Positions 44,685 through 49,967 of a stretch of 64,000 bases of DNA are shown here, piece after piece; positions within the stretch are counted from its first letter, which is position 1; the number at the start of each line of letters is the position of its first letter. The DNA is from Desulforhabdus amnigena (GTDB lineage: Bacteria; Desulfobacterota; Syntrophobacteria; Syntrophobacterales; Syntrophobacteraceae): contig NZ_BSDR01000001.1 in NCBI RefSeq assembly GCF_027925305.1, positions 2,569,001-2,633,000 of the forward strand, in the 5' to 3' direction. The notes under the pieces were generated by a model. That model searched no databases. It saw nothing but the letters and a program-made list of their open reading frames with translations, and was not told where the DNA came from. Made by a program: the position numbers and the translations under genes.

Positions 44685-45866
44685 TCACGTCAGCCCAGCT
44701 CGTTCCAGGAGACTTGCCAGAACCTTTTCCGCAGCAAAGTATTCTTCAGCGATTTCGCGTGCGGCCCGGCAGCTTCCTTCATAATCGCTTTCGATGATGT
44801 CCACTGCGGCAAGAATGTCTTCCATGGTGAGAAATCCGAAAAGTCCTTTCCCTGTGGGCAAAATGTTGCTGAAGCCCGTTTCTTGCGTGATCACGGGGCG
44901 CCCCGCCGCCAGATAACAGCAACTCCGGTCACTGAACCAACCGGTGCGGGGCCGCACCACCTGTTCCTTGGCCACAGTGAATTCTCCGTGGGATTGTTGG
45001 ATATATCTGCGGTAGTCATGGATATCCTTGGACACGTCCAGGGAATGCACCAGGCGCCAGCCATTTTTCGTGAGAAGCCGATGGGTGGGTTCATCCACTT
45101 CCAGCGCAAGTTCAAAGGGGACATTCCGGCGCTGGGGAAGATCCAGGAATTTCAAGAATTCGCGATCCTTGGTCCAGTAATAGGTCTTCCCTCGGTACTC
45201 GATGTTCTTGCCCTTGTTGTGCCATGTGGTGATGGTGCTGAAAGCCGAATCGCGTGACGGGGCATAAGGATTATCCCACAGGTCGAGAAGGACCGGCTGG
45301 CGCGTGGGGAGCCAGTCCACACCCTCCAGGGGAAGATCGCAGTCGGGAGCACCAAAGTTTTCTCCGAAGCTGAAATGGGTATCATGTGCAGCCAAAGCAT
45401 CCAGAGTGGGCTGGTCTCCCTGAGCGACCTTCACCTGCACGGCGAACGGATCGGATTCCACATAGATGCGGCGTGGAACGTTCATGTGTTCTTCGCGGAG
45501 CTCCTGGGATGCCGTCACGTTGAGGAATGCGTCGGCATCTTTGTAGAGCTGCAGCAGTTGCGCTTCGCTCATCCCGTAGCACCGTCCCCCTTCATAATTG
45601 CCTCTAAAAACCCACCGGTCCTTGAAGCCGTACTGATCGAGAACGGGAGCCACCGCCGCAATATTTTCCGAGGCGTCGGGGGAGAACTCGAATGTTCGGG
45701 CATTATAAATCCAACGCCCCGAATCTTCCACGTAATAGGGATCATAACCCAGGCGTCGAAGTCCCATCAAGTAATGAAGAAACTGAAAGGTCACTCCTGC
45801 CAGCGGATACCAGAAGATGATTCCAAAAACGATAATCTTTCCCTTACAAGGTTTTGCCGGGCTCAT
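44685..45866 (-). CDS. CgeB-like glycosyltransferase, paralog B
   Basis: The 393-residue protein starts PCKGKIIVFGIIFWYPLAGV. It contains two Rossmann-like halves. The late motif RTGWFSDRSCCYLAAGRPVI, followed by QETGFSNILPTGKGLFGF, resembles the UDP-binding part of GT-B (CgeB/GT1-4-like) enzymes. Substrate unknown. The next gene upstream (45943-47130) is a clear paralog with the same motifs. No signal peptide or membrane helix, so it acts in the cytoplasm. Confidence 0.78.
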   Translation of the reverse strand: MSPAKPCKGKIIVFGIIFWYPLAGVTFQFLHYLMGLRRLGYDPYYVEDSGRWIYNARTFEFSPDASENIAAVAPVLDQYGFKDRWVFRGNYEGGRCYGMSEAQLLQLYKDADAFLNVTASQELREEHMNVPRRIYVESDPFAVQVKVAQGDQPTLDALAAHDTHFSFGENFGAPDCDLPLEGVDWLPTRQPVLLDLWDNPYAPSRDSAFSTITTWHNKGKNIEYRGKTYYWTKDREFLKFLDLPQRRNVPFELALEVDEPTHRLLTKNGWRLVHSLDVSKDIHDYRRYIQQSHGEFTVAKEQVVRPRTGWFSDRSCCYLAAGRPVITQETGFSNILPTGKGLFGFLTMEDILAAVDIIESDYEGSCRAAREIAEEYFAAEKVLASLLERAGLT

Positions 45867-45942
45867 GGCTCGTTTTCCTTTTTAAACTCTTAGCTTGACA
45901 TTGTCACATTAACCAACCCAATCCGCTCTCTAACAAAAAAGA

Positions 45943-47130
45943 TTATAATGCATCTTCGATCATTTTTCCGAGGACTCTGGATGAGTCGAAATACTCGCGA
46001 GCGGCAGCGAAAGCGGCTTTTGCATGGAAGGCGTAGTCATTCTCCACTTTACGGAGCGCATCTGCAGCTTCTTCCGCACTGTTGAAAGCGAGAATGCCTT
46101 TCCCGCAGGGAATCAAAGATGAAAATCCCGTGTCCTGGACCACCACGGGCCGCCCAGCTGCCAGGTAGCAGGCGGAACGGCAGCTGAACCATCCGGTTCG
46201 CATGGCCACATACACATGCTTTGCCGGGGAAATCTCTCCCCGGGATCCCAGGATGAAATCTTGATATTTGGCTGGAGTCACTGTGGCTTCAGGGCCGTCG
46301 ACCACCTGCCAGCCTGCCGCAGCCAAACGCTCCAGGGGGGCGTTCACTCCCCCCACGGCAACCTTGAGAGGAACCCCGACCTGGCGGGGAAGGTCGATCA
46401 ATTTTTCGAACTCAGCCCCCTTGCTGGCATACTCGACGCCTTTGTAGATCAGCTTTCCCTTGAATGCGTTCCAGGTCATGATGGTCGACCAGGGAGACGT
46501 TTCGTGAGAAACGCGCCGTGCAAGAGGTTCCCATAAATCCATTACGATGGGCATGCGGGTGGTCTTCCACTTGAAATCCAGTCGAGGGGCGGTACAGTCG
46601 GCCCCGTATATGTTTTCGGCATAGGTGAAATGCTGATCGTGCTCGGCGACACCGGCACACCACCTTTCGACATTTTCCGACCACTCCAGACGCTCACTCA
46701 GCATGATCTGATTGTAGCCGGGATCCGTATCGAGAAATATCCTGGTGCAGCGGGGAGACAACGTATCGGGTATGATGCACGCTCCACTGACATTGAGAAA
46801 GATATCGGCCGTCCCGGCCACTGCATCGAAAGCCGCCTTGTCCATGCCGTAACTGGTCGCGTGCAAATGGCGATAGTGCCAGCGGCTGCATAGATCCGGC
46901 GCATAGTTCTTGAAGAAGTCTTCCAGATACTTCACCGAGTACCCCGGATCCTCGGTATAGGTTTTCTGGAGCGGATGATAGGGCCAGCTCCATGTGTCTT
47001 CATGATAGTACACGTCATGCCCCATCCGGGCAAAGCCGATCGCATACTGCAGATAGTCCCACGCCACACCGCCCACAGGATAGAGCCCGACCAAGCCCGT
47101 AACAATAATACGAAGACGCGAAGTTCCCAT
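45943..47130 (-). CDS. CgeB-like glycosyltransferase, paralog A
   Basis: The 395-residue protein shares with its neighbour the N-terminal IIVTGLVGLYPVGGVAWDYL, the pattern of a mid-region RIFLDTDPGYNQIM segment and the C-terminal MRTGWFSCRSACYLAAGRPV, then QDTGFSSLIPCGKGILAF. The paralogs are therefore a tandem duplication with moderate divergence. GGGAGG precedes ATG 47130. Function as in the neighbour: sugar transfer in a glycan pathway, acceptor unknown. Confidence 0.78.
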   Translation of the reverse strand: MGTSRLRIIVTGLVGLYPVGGVAWDYLQYAIGFARMGHDVYYHEDTWSWPYHPLQKTYTEDPGYSVKYLEDFFKNYAPDLCSRWHYRHLHATSYGMDKAAFDAVAGTADIFLNVSGACIIPDTLSPRCTRIFLDTDPGYNQIMLSERLEWSENVERWCAGVAEHDQHFTYAENIYGADCTAPRLDFKWKTTRMPIVMDLWEPLARRVSHETSPWSTIMTWNAFKGKLIYKGVEYASKGAEFEKLIDLPRQVGVPLKVAVGGVNAPLERLAAAGWQVVDGPEATVTPAKYQDFILGSRGEISPAKHVYVAMRTGWFSCRSACYLAAGRPVVVQDTGFSSLIPCGKGILAFNSAEEAADALRKVENDYAFHAKAAFAAAREYFDSSRVLGKMIEDAL

Positions 47131-47856: not shown

Positions 47857-48594
47857 ATGAAAAAGACTTCAATCCTGGCAGTGCTCTTCCTCCTGGGAGG
47901 GATGGCCACATCGGGTTGGTGTGACGCCGACAGAGAGGTCGCTGTGGAATGGATAAACATCTGCAATCCATGTGGAAACAACGATCTTTCCTGTCGTGAT
48001 GACGTAGCGGTTCGATTTTACAATATCCTTCGCGACAATGGATACGTAGGGCTCTTTAACTTCGGCAACTCGCTTGCCTGGGAGAGCGATTTCAAGGAAC
48101 CCGGTGACCAGAACTGGATAGATAAAGCAGATATCGCCTTGCATGCGGATCACGGCAACCGGTGCCGCTTCGCCTTCGGCAACACAACTCACGATGACTG
48201 CAGACTTTGGGCTGACGAGGCGGGATGGGGAAATAAGGATCTCGAGTGGATCATCTTTGACGACTGCTCTTGCGTCCAGCATGATTTCCAGTGGACCTGT
48301 TGGGAAGATGCCTTCCGGGGACTTCATTTAATAGCCAGCTTCGATACCAATGCCCACGACATGTGCGATCGGGGTGAGTACTTCGCCAATAAGCTGGTGG
48401 ATGGATGGACCCTCATGCAGGCATGGTTTTATGCCGCCGAGCAGACGGAAGGAGCTGGAACGTTCGCTTCCGTCATGGGAGCCAATAAGGGCAGCATCAG
48501 TCCTGCGTCCGATCATATCTGGGGATTCGGATCCCAAAGCGCTGACCCGTATCCTGCAGATTCATACTGGTGCTCATTCCATGACTGCGACTAA
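47857..48594 (+). CDS. Secreted DUF6345 protein, clan CD-like His/Cys motifs
   Basis: The 245-residue protein begins MKKTSILAVLFLLGGMATSG, a signal peptide. Its mature part matches DUF6345-like proteins with many cysteines. DIALHADHG places His99-Gly100 after a hydrophobic strand, and WIIFDDCSC places Asp-Cys (136-137) after another. Together they resemble the h-H-G and h-D-x-C pattern of clan CD cysteine peptidases (caspase, legumain, gingipain). HLIASFDTNAHDMCDRGEYF and DGWTLMQAWFYAAEQTEGAG follow as in these folds. Protease activity is an inference. GGAGG lies before ATG 47857. The next gene starts ten bases after its stop. Confidence 0.75.
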   Translation: MKKTSILAVLFLLGGMATSGWCDADREVAVEWINICNPCGNNDLSCRDDVAVRFYNILRDNGYVGLFNFGNSLAWESDFKEPGDQNWIDKADIALHADHGNRCRFAFGNTTHDDCRLWADEAGWGNKDLEWIIFDDCSCVQHDFQWTCWEDAFRGLHLIASFDTNAHDMCDRGEYFANKLVDGWTLMQAWFYAAEQTEGAGTFASVMGANKGSISPASDHIWGFGSQSADPYPADSYWCSFHDCD

Positions 48595-48604
48595 GGAGGC
48601 ATCG

Positions 48605-49666
48605 ATGCAAGCAACCAAATTGTCCGGATTTTTTGTCGTCGCAATCATCAGTGCTTTCCTCCTGATGGACAGTCAAGCCTGGGCCAAAGAAGAAGCAGTC
48701 CGGCATGGCTCCGCTTCACAACCCAATGTAACTGCTACGGAAATTAAGGTCGTTTACAAGGTCGACCTGGAGCAGTTGGCAAAGAAGCTACCCGGAAGAT
48801 TGATGGTTTACCGTACCAGTCCCGACCAGGGTGGAGAATCCCAGATGGAAGCCGTCAAGAAATTTTTCGGCAGCGAAAGCAACATGGTCGTGGACATGCA
48901 GAAGGCTTCGGGGGGGATATTTGCGGCGGACCTCAACAGACTCTGGGCAAGAGTGCCTGGATTCAACGATGAAGTGCCGCCCCTCAACAGGAAGCAGATC
49001 CTAGCGGCAACAGCAACCTTTCTATATGAAATCAATGGAAACCCTCAAGAAAAGACTGTGAGGCGCTTCTCCACCGATTCTGTCGAGCTCACTGACAAAG
49101 AAGGCAAGCAGAAGGTGCTTCCTCTGGGAGCCAATATTACCTACCGGCGGATTCTCAATGGTTACAAGGTGATTGGTCCTGGCGGTAAGATCAAGATCTT
49201 TCATGATTCAGAGGGGATGGTGGCAGGTTATTTGCGCGTGTGGCGCTCCCTGAAAGCTGAAAGCGTGAAACCGCTCATCGGTGTCTTCGGCGCCAGGGAT
49301 GAGTTCAATAAGAACCCTCTCGGTGATACGCTTTTGGCCGACATATCAGAGGTAAACGTAAACAACATCACTCTCGCCTACCTGGAGCGCGGGATCAACC
49401 AGTCCCAGAACTATCTCCAGCCCATCTACGTATTTGACTGTACCGCCTTTTACAAAGGCACGGAAAAGGCCGAGGGCACTCGATACACCAGGTATGTGGC
49501 GGCTCTGACCAAACAGCCGGAGCCCCTATGGCAAGAGGGAGAAGAATATAAATCCGACAGGAGGCGCAAGGCTCTGCCACGCCAAAGCTCGAAAGTACAA
49601 AAAATGTCGGATGAATCATCTCAGCCCACATCTCCTTTCACTTTAGAGGATAAGGATCCCGATTGA
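48605..49666 (+). CDS. Secreted partner of the DUF6345 protein, possible propeptide-like protein
   Basis: The 353-residue protein begins MQATKLSGFFVVAIISAFLL and has a signal peptide (about 1-26, ending SQAWA). Most of the chain has no family I can name. The segment ILNGYKVIGPGGKIKIFHDS, then EGMVAGYLRVWRSL, resembles the PepSY/FTP-type domains that inhibit or help fold proteases. The C-terminus is charged. ATG 48605 has GGAGG seven bases upstream. The gene follows the DUF6345 gene by ten bases, so it is co-transcribed; the propeptide-like role is inferred from this and the segment above. Confidence 0.7.
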   Translation: MQATKLSGFFVVAIISAFLLMDSQAWAKEEAVRHGSASQPNVTATEIKVVYKVDLEQLAKKLPGRLMVYRTSPDQGGESQMEAVKKFFGSESNMVVDMQKASGGIFAADLNRLWARVPGFNDEVPPLNRKQILAATATFLYEINGNPQEKTVRRFSTDSVELTDKEGKQKVLPLGANITYRRILNGYKVIGPGGKIKIFHDSEGMVAGYLRVWRSLKAESVKPLIGVFGARDEFNKNPLGDTLLADISEVNVNNITLAYLERGINQSQNYLQPIYVFDCTAFYKGTEKAEGTRYTRYVAALTKQPEPLWQEGEEYKSDRRRKALPRQSSKVQKMSDESSQPTSPFTLEDKDPD

Positions 49667-49967
49667 GCATTGGCGGAGGGGAATATACAGCTCATCATCA
49701 GTGTAGCCCTTCCAACATTCTTGGAAGGGCTACACTGTGTCGGTGGGTACTTTTCAGTGAGCGCTGAGTCTTGTTCCATCTCCAGGCGCTTGTCCGAGAT
49801 CGGATACGGCAAGGTATAAGAGAGATTGGAGACAAAAAATCCTTTCCTTTTTTGGAGAAAATGTGCTTCAGATTTATCAACTTTCCGATATATAGATTTG
49901 TTCAATGTCGGCAAGCGACATTCATGAACTCTTTATGGCCGCTCCATCAGAAAATAAAGGATAGACC
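49667..49967. other. Gene-free region with a strong hairpin
   Basis: About 300 bp. A perfect 15-bp hairpin lies at 49701-49735. The rest is AT-rich and probably leads to the TTG start of the flavodoxin-ferredoxin gene at 49968. Confidence 0.5.
49701..49735. terminator. Perfect 15-bp hairpin, possible terminator
   Basis: GTGTAGCCCTTCCAA (49701-49715) and TTGGAAGGGCTACAC (49721-49735) are perfectly complementary, with a five-base loop CATTC. It lies 35 bases after the partner gene's stop. No T-tract follows, so it may be a Rho-independent terminator without the U-run, an mRNA 3' stabiliser, or another element. No second copy was found in this window. Confidence 0.5.

Follow-up and report, generated by a model that had tools for sequence, protein, structure and literature searches.

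A putative caspase-fold cysteine peptidase of the DUF6345 family and its predicted PepSY/FTP-type partner, encoded by adjacent genes in Desulforhabdus amnigena

Two neighbouring genes of Desulforhabdus amnigena, located in the stretch of 64,000 nucleotides that was analysed (the window), raise the question of whether DUF6345, a protein family of unknown function, consists of cysteine peptidases, and whether the gene that follows it encodes a pro-domain acting in trans. Both ideas were put forward in an original prediction made from the DNA letters and their translations. According to this prediction, the first product has the paired motifs of clan CD peptidases, and the second, whose gene begins ten bases later and which is also exported, is a propeptide-like partner. 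The features of the locus are the following:

47857-48594, plus strand: ORF1 (245 aa plus stop), exported DUF6345 protein, predicted caspase-fold (clan CD-like) cysteine peptidase
48605-49666, plus strand: ORF2 (353 aa plus stop), exported partner, homologue of fused DUF6345 pro-regions
49699-49737, plus strand: perfect 17-bp inverted repeat with a 5-nt loop, 3' of ORF2

The gap between the two genes is indeed 10 bases (48595-48604), and each ATG has a Shine-Dalgarno-like GGAGG upstream. In a simple hydrophobicity scan both N-termini are hydrophobic and resemble signal peptides, as is typical of exported proteins; export of both products, as claimed, is thus predicted from sequence. The inverted repeat might mark the end of the transcription unit, but because it is not accompanied by a run of T residues this role is merely possible, and unproven. 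The surrounding genes with Pfam matches (Acyl_transf_3, a 4Fe-4S protein, DUF3124, a PEBP-like protein, MarC and a pyridine nucleotide-disulphide oxidoreductase) have no evident link to the pair. Two adjoining genes on the minus strand (44685-47130), encoding proteins of 393 and 395 aa without a Pfam match at E 0.001, are partly alike by eye.

ORF1 is a member of DUF6345 (PF19872; E 9.1e-53, 179.4 bits against a curated cut-off of 26.9), the match spanning positions 1-217 of 221, and it is the sole DUF6345 gene of the 4.54 Mb genome. In public genomes, bacterial relatives are present in Armatimonadota, Planctomycetota, Verrucomicrobiota, Chloroflexota, Spirochaetota, Bacteroidota, Nitrospirota, Cyanobacteriota, Pseudomonadota, Actinomycetota and Deinococcota, and archaeal ones in several groups. 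The distribution is patchy: the family occurs in 7 of 395 genomes of the phylum to which the window belongs and in 26 of 247 genomes of a sampled archaeal phylum, these two counts having been obtained with E-value limits that were not the same. A single relative was plasmid-borne (Deinococcus peraridilitoris), and no relative was found on viral contigs or phages. Neither NCBIfam nor PADLOC gave a match, and searches of PDB sequences with ORF1, ORF2 and their profiles yielded no credible match. One Methanophagales genome (G434) contains four DUF6345 genes, two of which share a locus (L013, 4992-9709) where a separate partner gene comes after each of them.

What, then, is the likely structure of ORF1? 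The AlphaFold2 model, based on 35 aligned sequences, has a pLDDT of 88.6 and a pTM of 0.85. In a Foldseek comparison with the PDB, the first match was SAVED-CHAT (E 3.5e-6, TM 0.5), caspases came next in the ranking from E 2.6e-5 onwards, and 88 matches were obtained at E<=1e-3. Clostripain and a caspase were also among the best four matches in a viral library. As far as a predicted rather than a solved structure allows, ORF1 therefore has what a clan CD assignment demands, namely a caspase/haemoglobinase fold, and the caspase-like fold anticipated for the first product is borne out by both libraries. The likeness to clan CD structures is only remote (TM about 0.4-0.5); of the helices that belong to the caspase core, numbers 2 and 3 are short in the model. 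Profile comparisons point the same way, and only weakly. With hhalign, DUF6345 scored 27.1 against family C14 (best of 40 shuffles 19.8) and 23.8 against C25 (best of 40 shuffles 19.1), with probabilities of only 9% and 2%, respectively; the HG motifs align in both comparisons. The Pfam matches to C14 and C25 are weak (0.12 and 0.029). Regarding kinship with the named clan CD families, the profiles alone are only suggestive and do not constitute proof.

The predicted active-site positions lie at the ends of two core strands of the model, in the order strand 93-97, His99-Gly100, short strands 104-106 and 116-118, strand 131-135 and Cys137:

48151..48156, plus strand: His99-Gly100, predicted catalytic His, after strand 3 (93-97)
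48262..48267, plus strand: Asp136-Cys137, predicted nucleophile, after strand 4 (131-135)
48325..48327, plus strand: His157, GLH motif before strand 158-162, near-invariant (83 of 88 rows)

Clan CD peptidases are recognised by His-Gly and Ala/Ser/Asp-Cys blocks that follow hydrophobic strands, and both blocks are present in ORF1, the first after DIALHAD and the second after WIIFD, as had been pointed out together with the downstream HLIASFDTNAH and Gly-Trp segments, which are also there. Judged on the strand order of the model alone, the predicted catalytic residues are placed as clan CD requires, with His at the end of strand 3 and Cys at the end of strand 4. Conservation of the two residues, the absence of which would have refuted the original prediction, was observed in an alignment of 91 family rows that includes near-copies. 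Cys137 is Cys in 86 of the 87 rows having a residue at this position and ranks first in conservation; His99 is His in 83 of 85 such rows and ties with His157 for second place. Since Cys137 is the most conserved column and His99 is tied second, the motif in ORF1 is far beyond chance. The motif of the family is G-H-G ... (S/A/T)-C, and ORF1 itself, with DHG and DC, is unusual: the position of Asp136 is otherwise Ser, Ala or Thr, and that of Asp98 is normally Gly. No clan CD counterpart has been assigned to His157. A divergent branch of the family, which belongs partly to the bacterial family of the window itself (L002, L003, L007, L008 and L098), keeps His and Cys; the first four of these have the motifs THGGD or YHGGD and LSSCHSL or LSSCQSL. 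Matches to the partner are weak or absent in this branch, which may have a more distant partner.

These data bear on the possibility that ORF1 is not an enzyme at all, and that the conserved His and Cys serve structure, metal binding or disulphides in a binding protein. The distant fold likeness and the lack of a profile link to clan CD that is significant by itself leave room for this explanation, as do the twelve cysteines of ORF1. However, the two most relevant residues directly follow strands 3 and 4, and the other cysteines do not share the conservation of Cys137. Furthermore, the only loss of the Cys goes along with loss of the His: in a fused homologue from Saccharothrix algeriensis (L042) the His is replaced by Arg and the Cys by Ser, as predicted for a catalytic pair. 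In its close relative from Saccharothrix obliqua (L046), also fused, the His is replaced by Asn, suggesting that both are pseudoenzymes in one small clade. We consider a non-enzymatic ORF1 very improbable.

A different question is which reaction such a dyad would catalyse. The chemistry is not determined by fold and dyad, and ORF1 could be a caspase-like protein with His and Cys that is not a general peptidase, for example one that acts as a ligase or transpeptidase, or one whose cleavage is confined to itself or its partner. In the fused forms the linker, a low-confidence part of the model of the homologue discussed below, could be a site of such self-cleavage. On the other hand, the standalone ORF1 has no linker to cut, and the structural neighbours that can be named (caspase, clostripain and CHAT) are mostly peptidases. 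We regard this alternative as unlikely, and continue to interpret ORF1 as a putative peptidase.

The second gene can be understood from the architecture of the relatives. In several long homologues the DUF6345 domain is C-terminal and preceded by an extra region. A profile of 31 such N-terminal regions of fused proteins was compared with every ORF in the window and in the loci of the relatives, and it matched the gene directly downstream of standalone DUF6345 genes, including ORF2 (E 1.1e-11). A second profile, constructed from 19 fused regions without any separate-gene partner, gave a single match in the whole 4.54 Mb genome, which was ORF2 (E 4.1e-9). When ORF2 by itself was compared with the fused-region profile by hhalign, the result was 93.7% (E 2e-7); with the family of separate partners it rose to 99.5% (E 8e-23). 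Thus, ORF2 is a homologue of the fused pro-regions, and the proposal that a pro-region fused elsewhere is a separate gene here is supported by these searches. The segment highlighted in the original prediction is present in ORF2:

49157..49216, plus strand: NGYKVIGPGGKIKIFHDSEG, corresponding in the alignments to LxGxPLxGPGAK of the fused pro-regions

How general is this arrangement? The layout was surveyed for 77 non-redundant DUF6345 genes. The partner was N-terminal in 28, C-terminal in 7, encoded by the next gene downstream in 39 and undetected in 3, one of which (L034) starts at a contig end. The predicted co-occurrence is hence near-universal, a partner being present with 74 of the 77 genes, or with 70 of 77 in a strict count that leaves out four weak next-gene cases (E 0.0002-0.007). 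Provided that DUF6345 is a peptidase, this is the linkage expected of a PepSY/FTP-type pro-domain. The survey relied on an iterated profile, and the first-pass searches described above (E 1.1e-11 and 4.1e-9) were free of iteration. As sampling was done via DUF6345, the numbers give the frequency of the partner for DUF6345 and not the converse. The separation of the pro-region, which had been inferred for this locus, holds, and needs correction in its scope: far from being a local oddity, a notion that we reject, the split layout is the commonest one in the survey, and a C-terminal fusion exists as a third. An Ig-like domain often lies between the pro-region and DUF6345 in the N-terminally fused forms.

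In a tree of 74 domains, N-terminal fusion requires two changes, and because one of them is owed to the cut-off L034 a single origin is likely. C-terminal fusion requires at least three changes. The sequence from the window groups with the separate-gene rows, without firm support for its exact placement. A hydrophobic N-terminus was clear in both genes of 16 of 18 pairs in the simple scan. In Pseudoduganella guangdongensis (L016, 4983-6515) neither gene has one, and this pair may work inside the cell; at L099 only the partner has one, on an ORF without a fixed start.

The survey also addresses whether ORF2 could be an unrelated exported protein that is adjacent to ORF1 by chance. In favour of this, ORF2 has no Pfam or PDB match of its own. 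However, a profile built without ORF2 finds ORF2 alone in the genome, and bacteria and archaea that are only distantly related have the two genes side by side as well, or fused. Chance adjacency is strongly contradicted by these observations, and we give it almost no credence.

The nature of the partner has to be inferred from its relatives and from the model of a fused homologue, and not from a match of ORF2 itself, which had no accepted Pfam match and no PDB sequence match. Its WIV_dom match (E 0.011, under the cut-off of that family) was dismissed as chance. Among 19 separate-gene partners, ORF2 included, FTP was matched in six (best E 4.4e-5), DUF4901 in five and YycI in three, all of which are PepSY-type families. 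Where located, the FTP matches of the relatives did not reach the cut-off; they coincided with, or lay close to, the GxPVxGPG segment highlighted in the original prediction. Additional information comes from a fused Actinoplanes protein without the Ig domain (L040, 518 aa), whose model has a pLDDT of 89.7 and a pTM of 0.90. Its PDB matches were EUBREC_2869, YpeB (E 5e-6) and YycI (E 3e-5), followed by caspases. The high pTM, together with a linker modelled with low confidence, points to a defined packing of the two parts, as far as a model can indicate this. The propeptide-like character ascribed to the second gene is supported through its relatives, which match FTP, DUF4901 and YycI, but not through ORF2 itself, for which no match rises above a cut-off.

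Taken together, we favour, as a moderately probable explanation, that the pair consists of an exported caspase-fold cysteine peptidase and a pro-domain serving as its folding aid and inhibitor, which is provided here in trans. The caspase-like (clan CD) domain of ORF1 would cleave peptide bonds by means of the His99-Cys137 dyad. The PepSY/FTP-type ORF2, made from the next gene and exported alongside ORF1, would bind it, assist its folding and keep it inactive, and ORF1 would be freed once ORF2 had been removed or degraded outside the cytoplasm. Elsewhere in the family this pro-region is fused to DUF6345, at its N-terminal or its C-terminal side. Catalysis, binding, chaperoning and inhibition are all inferred for the ORF1/ORF2 pair, in distinction from the family assignment, the predicted fold, the conservation of the dyad, the homology of ORF2 to the fused pro-region and the co-occurrence, which were computed.

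The main rival shares the peptidase and concerns the role of ORF2, which may be no inhibitor and instead be an aid to folding or export, an anchor or a targeting factor that stays with the active enzyme. Co-occurrence and fusion show that the two proteins are functionally tied, and do not reveal the sign of this tie; in addition, the existence of both N- and C-terminal fusions, with the Ig-like domain often interposed in the former, is compatible with a non-inhibitory role. Against this, what PepSY/FTP-type domains are chiefly known for is a pro-domain role in which they both fold and inhibit their enzymes. Moreover, YpeB, a PepSY protein that stabilises SleB in trans, can also inhibit it (PMC6660665). 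We view a partner that is a chaperone or anchor only as rather unlikely, and retain the inhibitory pro-domain as the preferred function of ORF2.

Comparison with known systems shows that each half of the pair is of a known kind; what appears to be new is their pairing and the way in which the pro-domain has moved among three positions. With the clan CD families (C14 caspases and metacaspases, C11 clostripain, C25 gingipain, and CHAT), DUF6345 shares the predicted fold, the order of His and then Cys, the place of the dyad after strands 3 and 4 and the H-G and (S/A/T)-C motifs, whereas the sequence profiles barely connect. Eight clan CD families were recognised as of March 2025, and DUF6345 is not among them (PMC12445089). 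A precedent is gingipain, an exported enzyme of clan CD that a prodomain keeps in check (PMC4357240). In gingipain RgpB this is a large N-terminal prodomain of the same chain, in contrast to the separate gene found here, and the PepSY/FTP-type partner of DUF6345 is unlike any clan CD mode of self-inhibition tabled in that work. The FTP/PepSY propeptides of secreted metallopeptidases (thermolysin-like; M4, M36) resemble several ORF2 relatives, which match FTP at GxPVxGPG; their mates are zinc peptidases, whereas here the mate has a caspase fold and the pro-domain is often a gene of its own. As to YpeB and SleB of Bacillus spores, the C-terminal structure of YpeB ranks among the top matches to the fused L040 model, but SleB degrades peptidoglycan, unlike the predicted peptidase ORF1, and the stronger inhibition by YpeB comes from its N-terminal region and not from the PepSY part. 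In the open-access papers searched we found no mention of DUF6345, PF19872 or IPR045926, nor of clan CD, cysteine peptidase and PepSY together; a single paper has the words caspase-like and PepSY, each of them once, and a paper on archaeal dark matter (PMC4158269) does not describe the pair.

What would this mean for the family? That DUF6345 is a new exported clan CD family, and comprises the first cysteine peptidases known to depend on a PepSY/FTP-type pro-domain for both folding and inactivity, with the pro-domain provided in trans in many lineages, we put at about an even chance. If true, a family of unknown function that is spread over many bacterial phyla and archaea, and of which a genome can have up to four members, would become a peptidase family that can be tested and whose nucleophile is named. 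PepSY/FTP-type pro-domains are known mainly from metallopeptidases, and their range would be extended to caspase-fold enzymes. The family would also provide a case in which one pro-domain shifts between N-terminal, C-terminal and separate-gene positions and is rarely lost. The almost constant pairing, sometimes as a fusion, is what one would expect if a protease family had gone unrecognised that carries a safety catch of its own.
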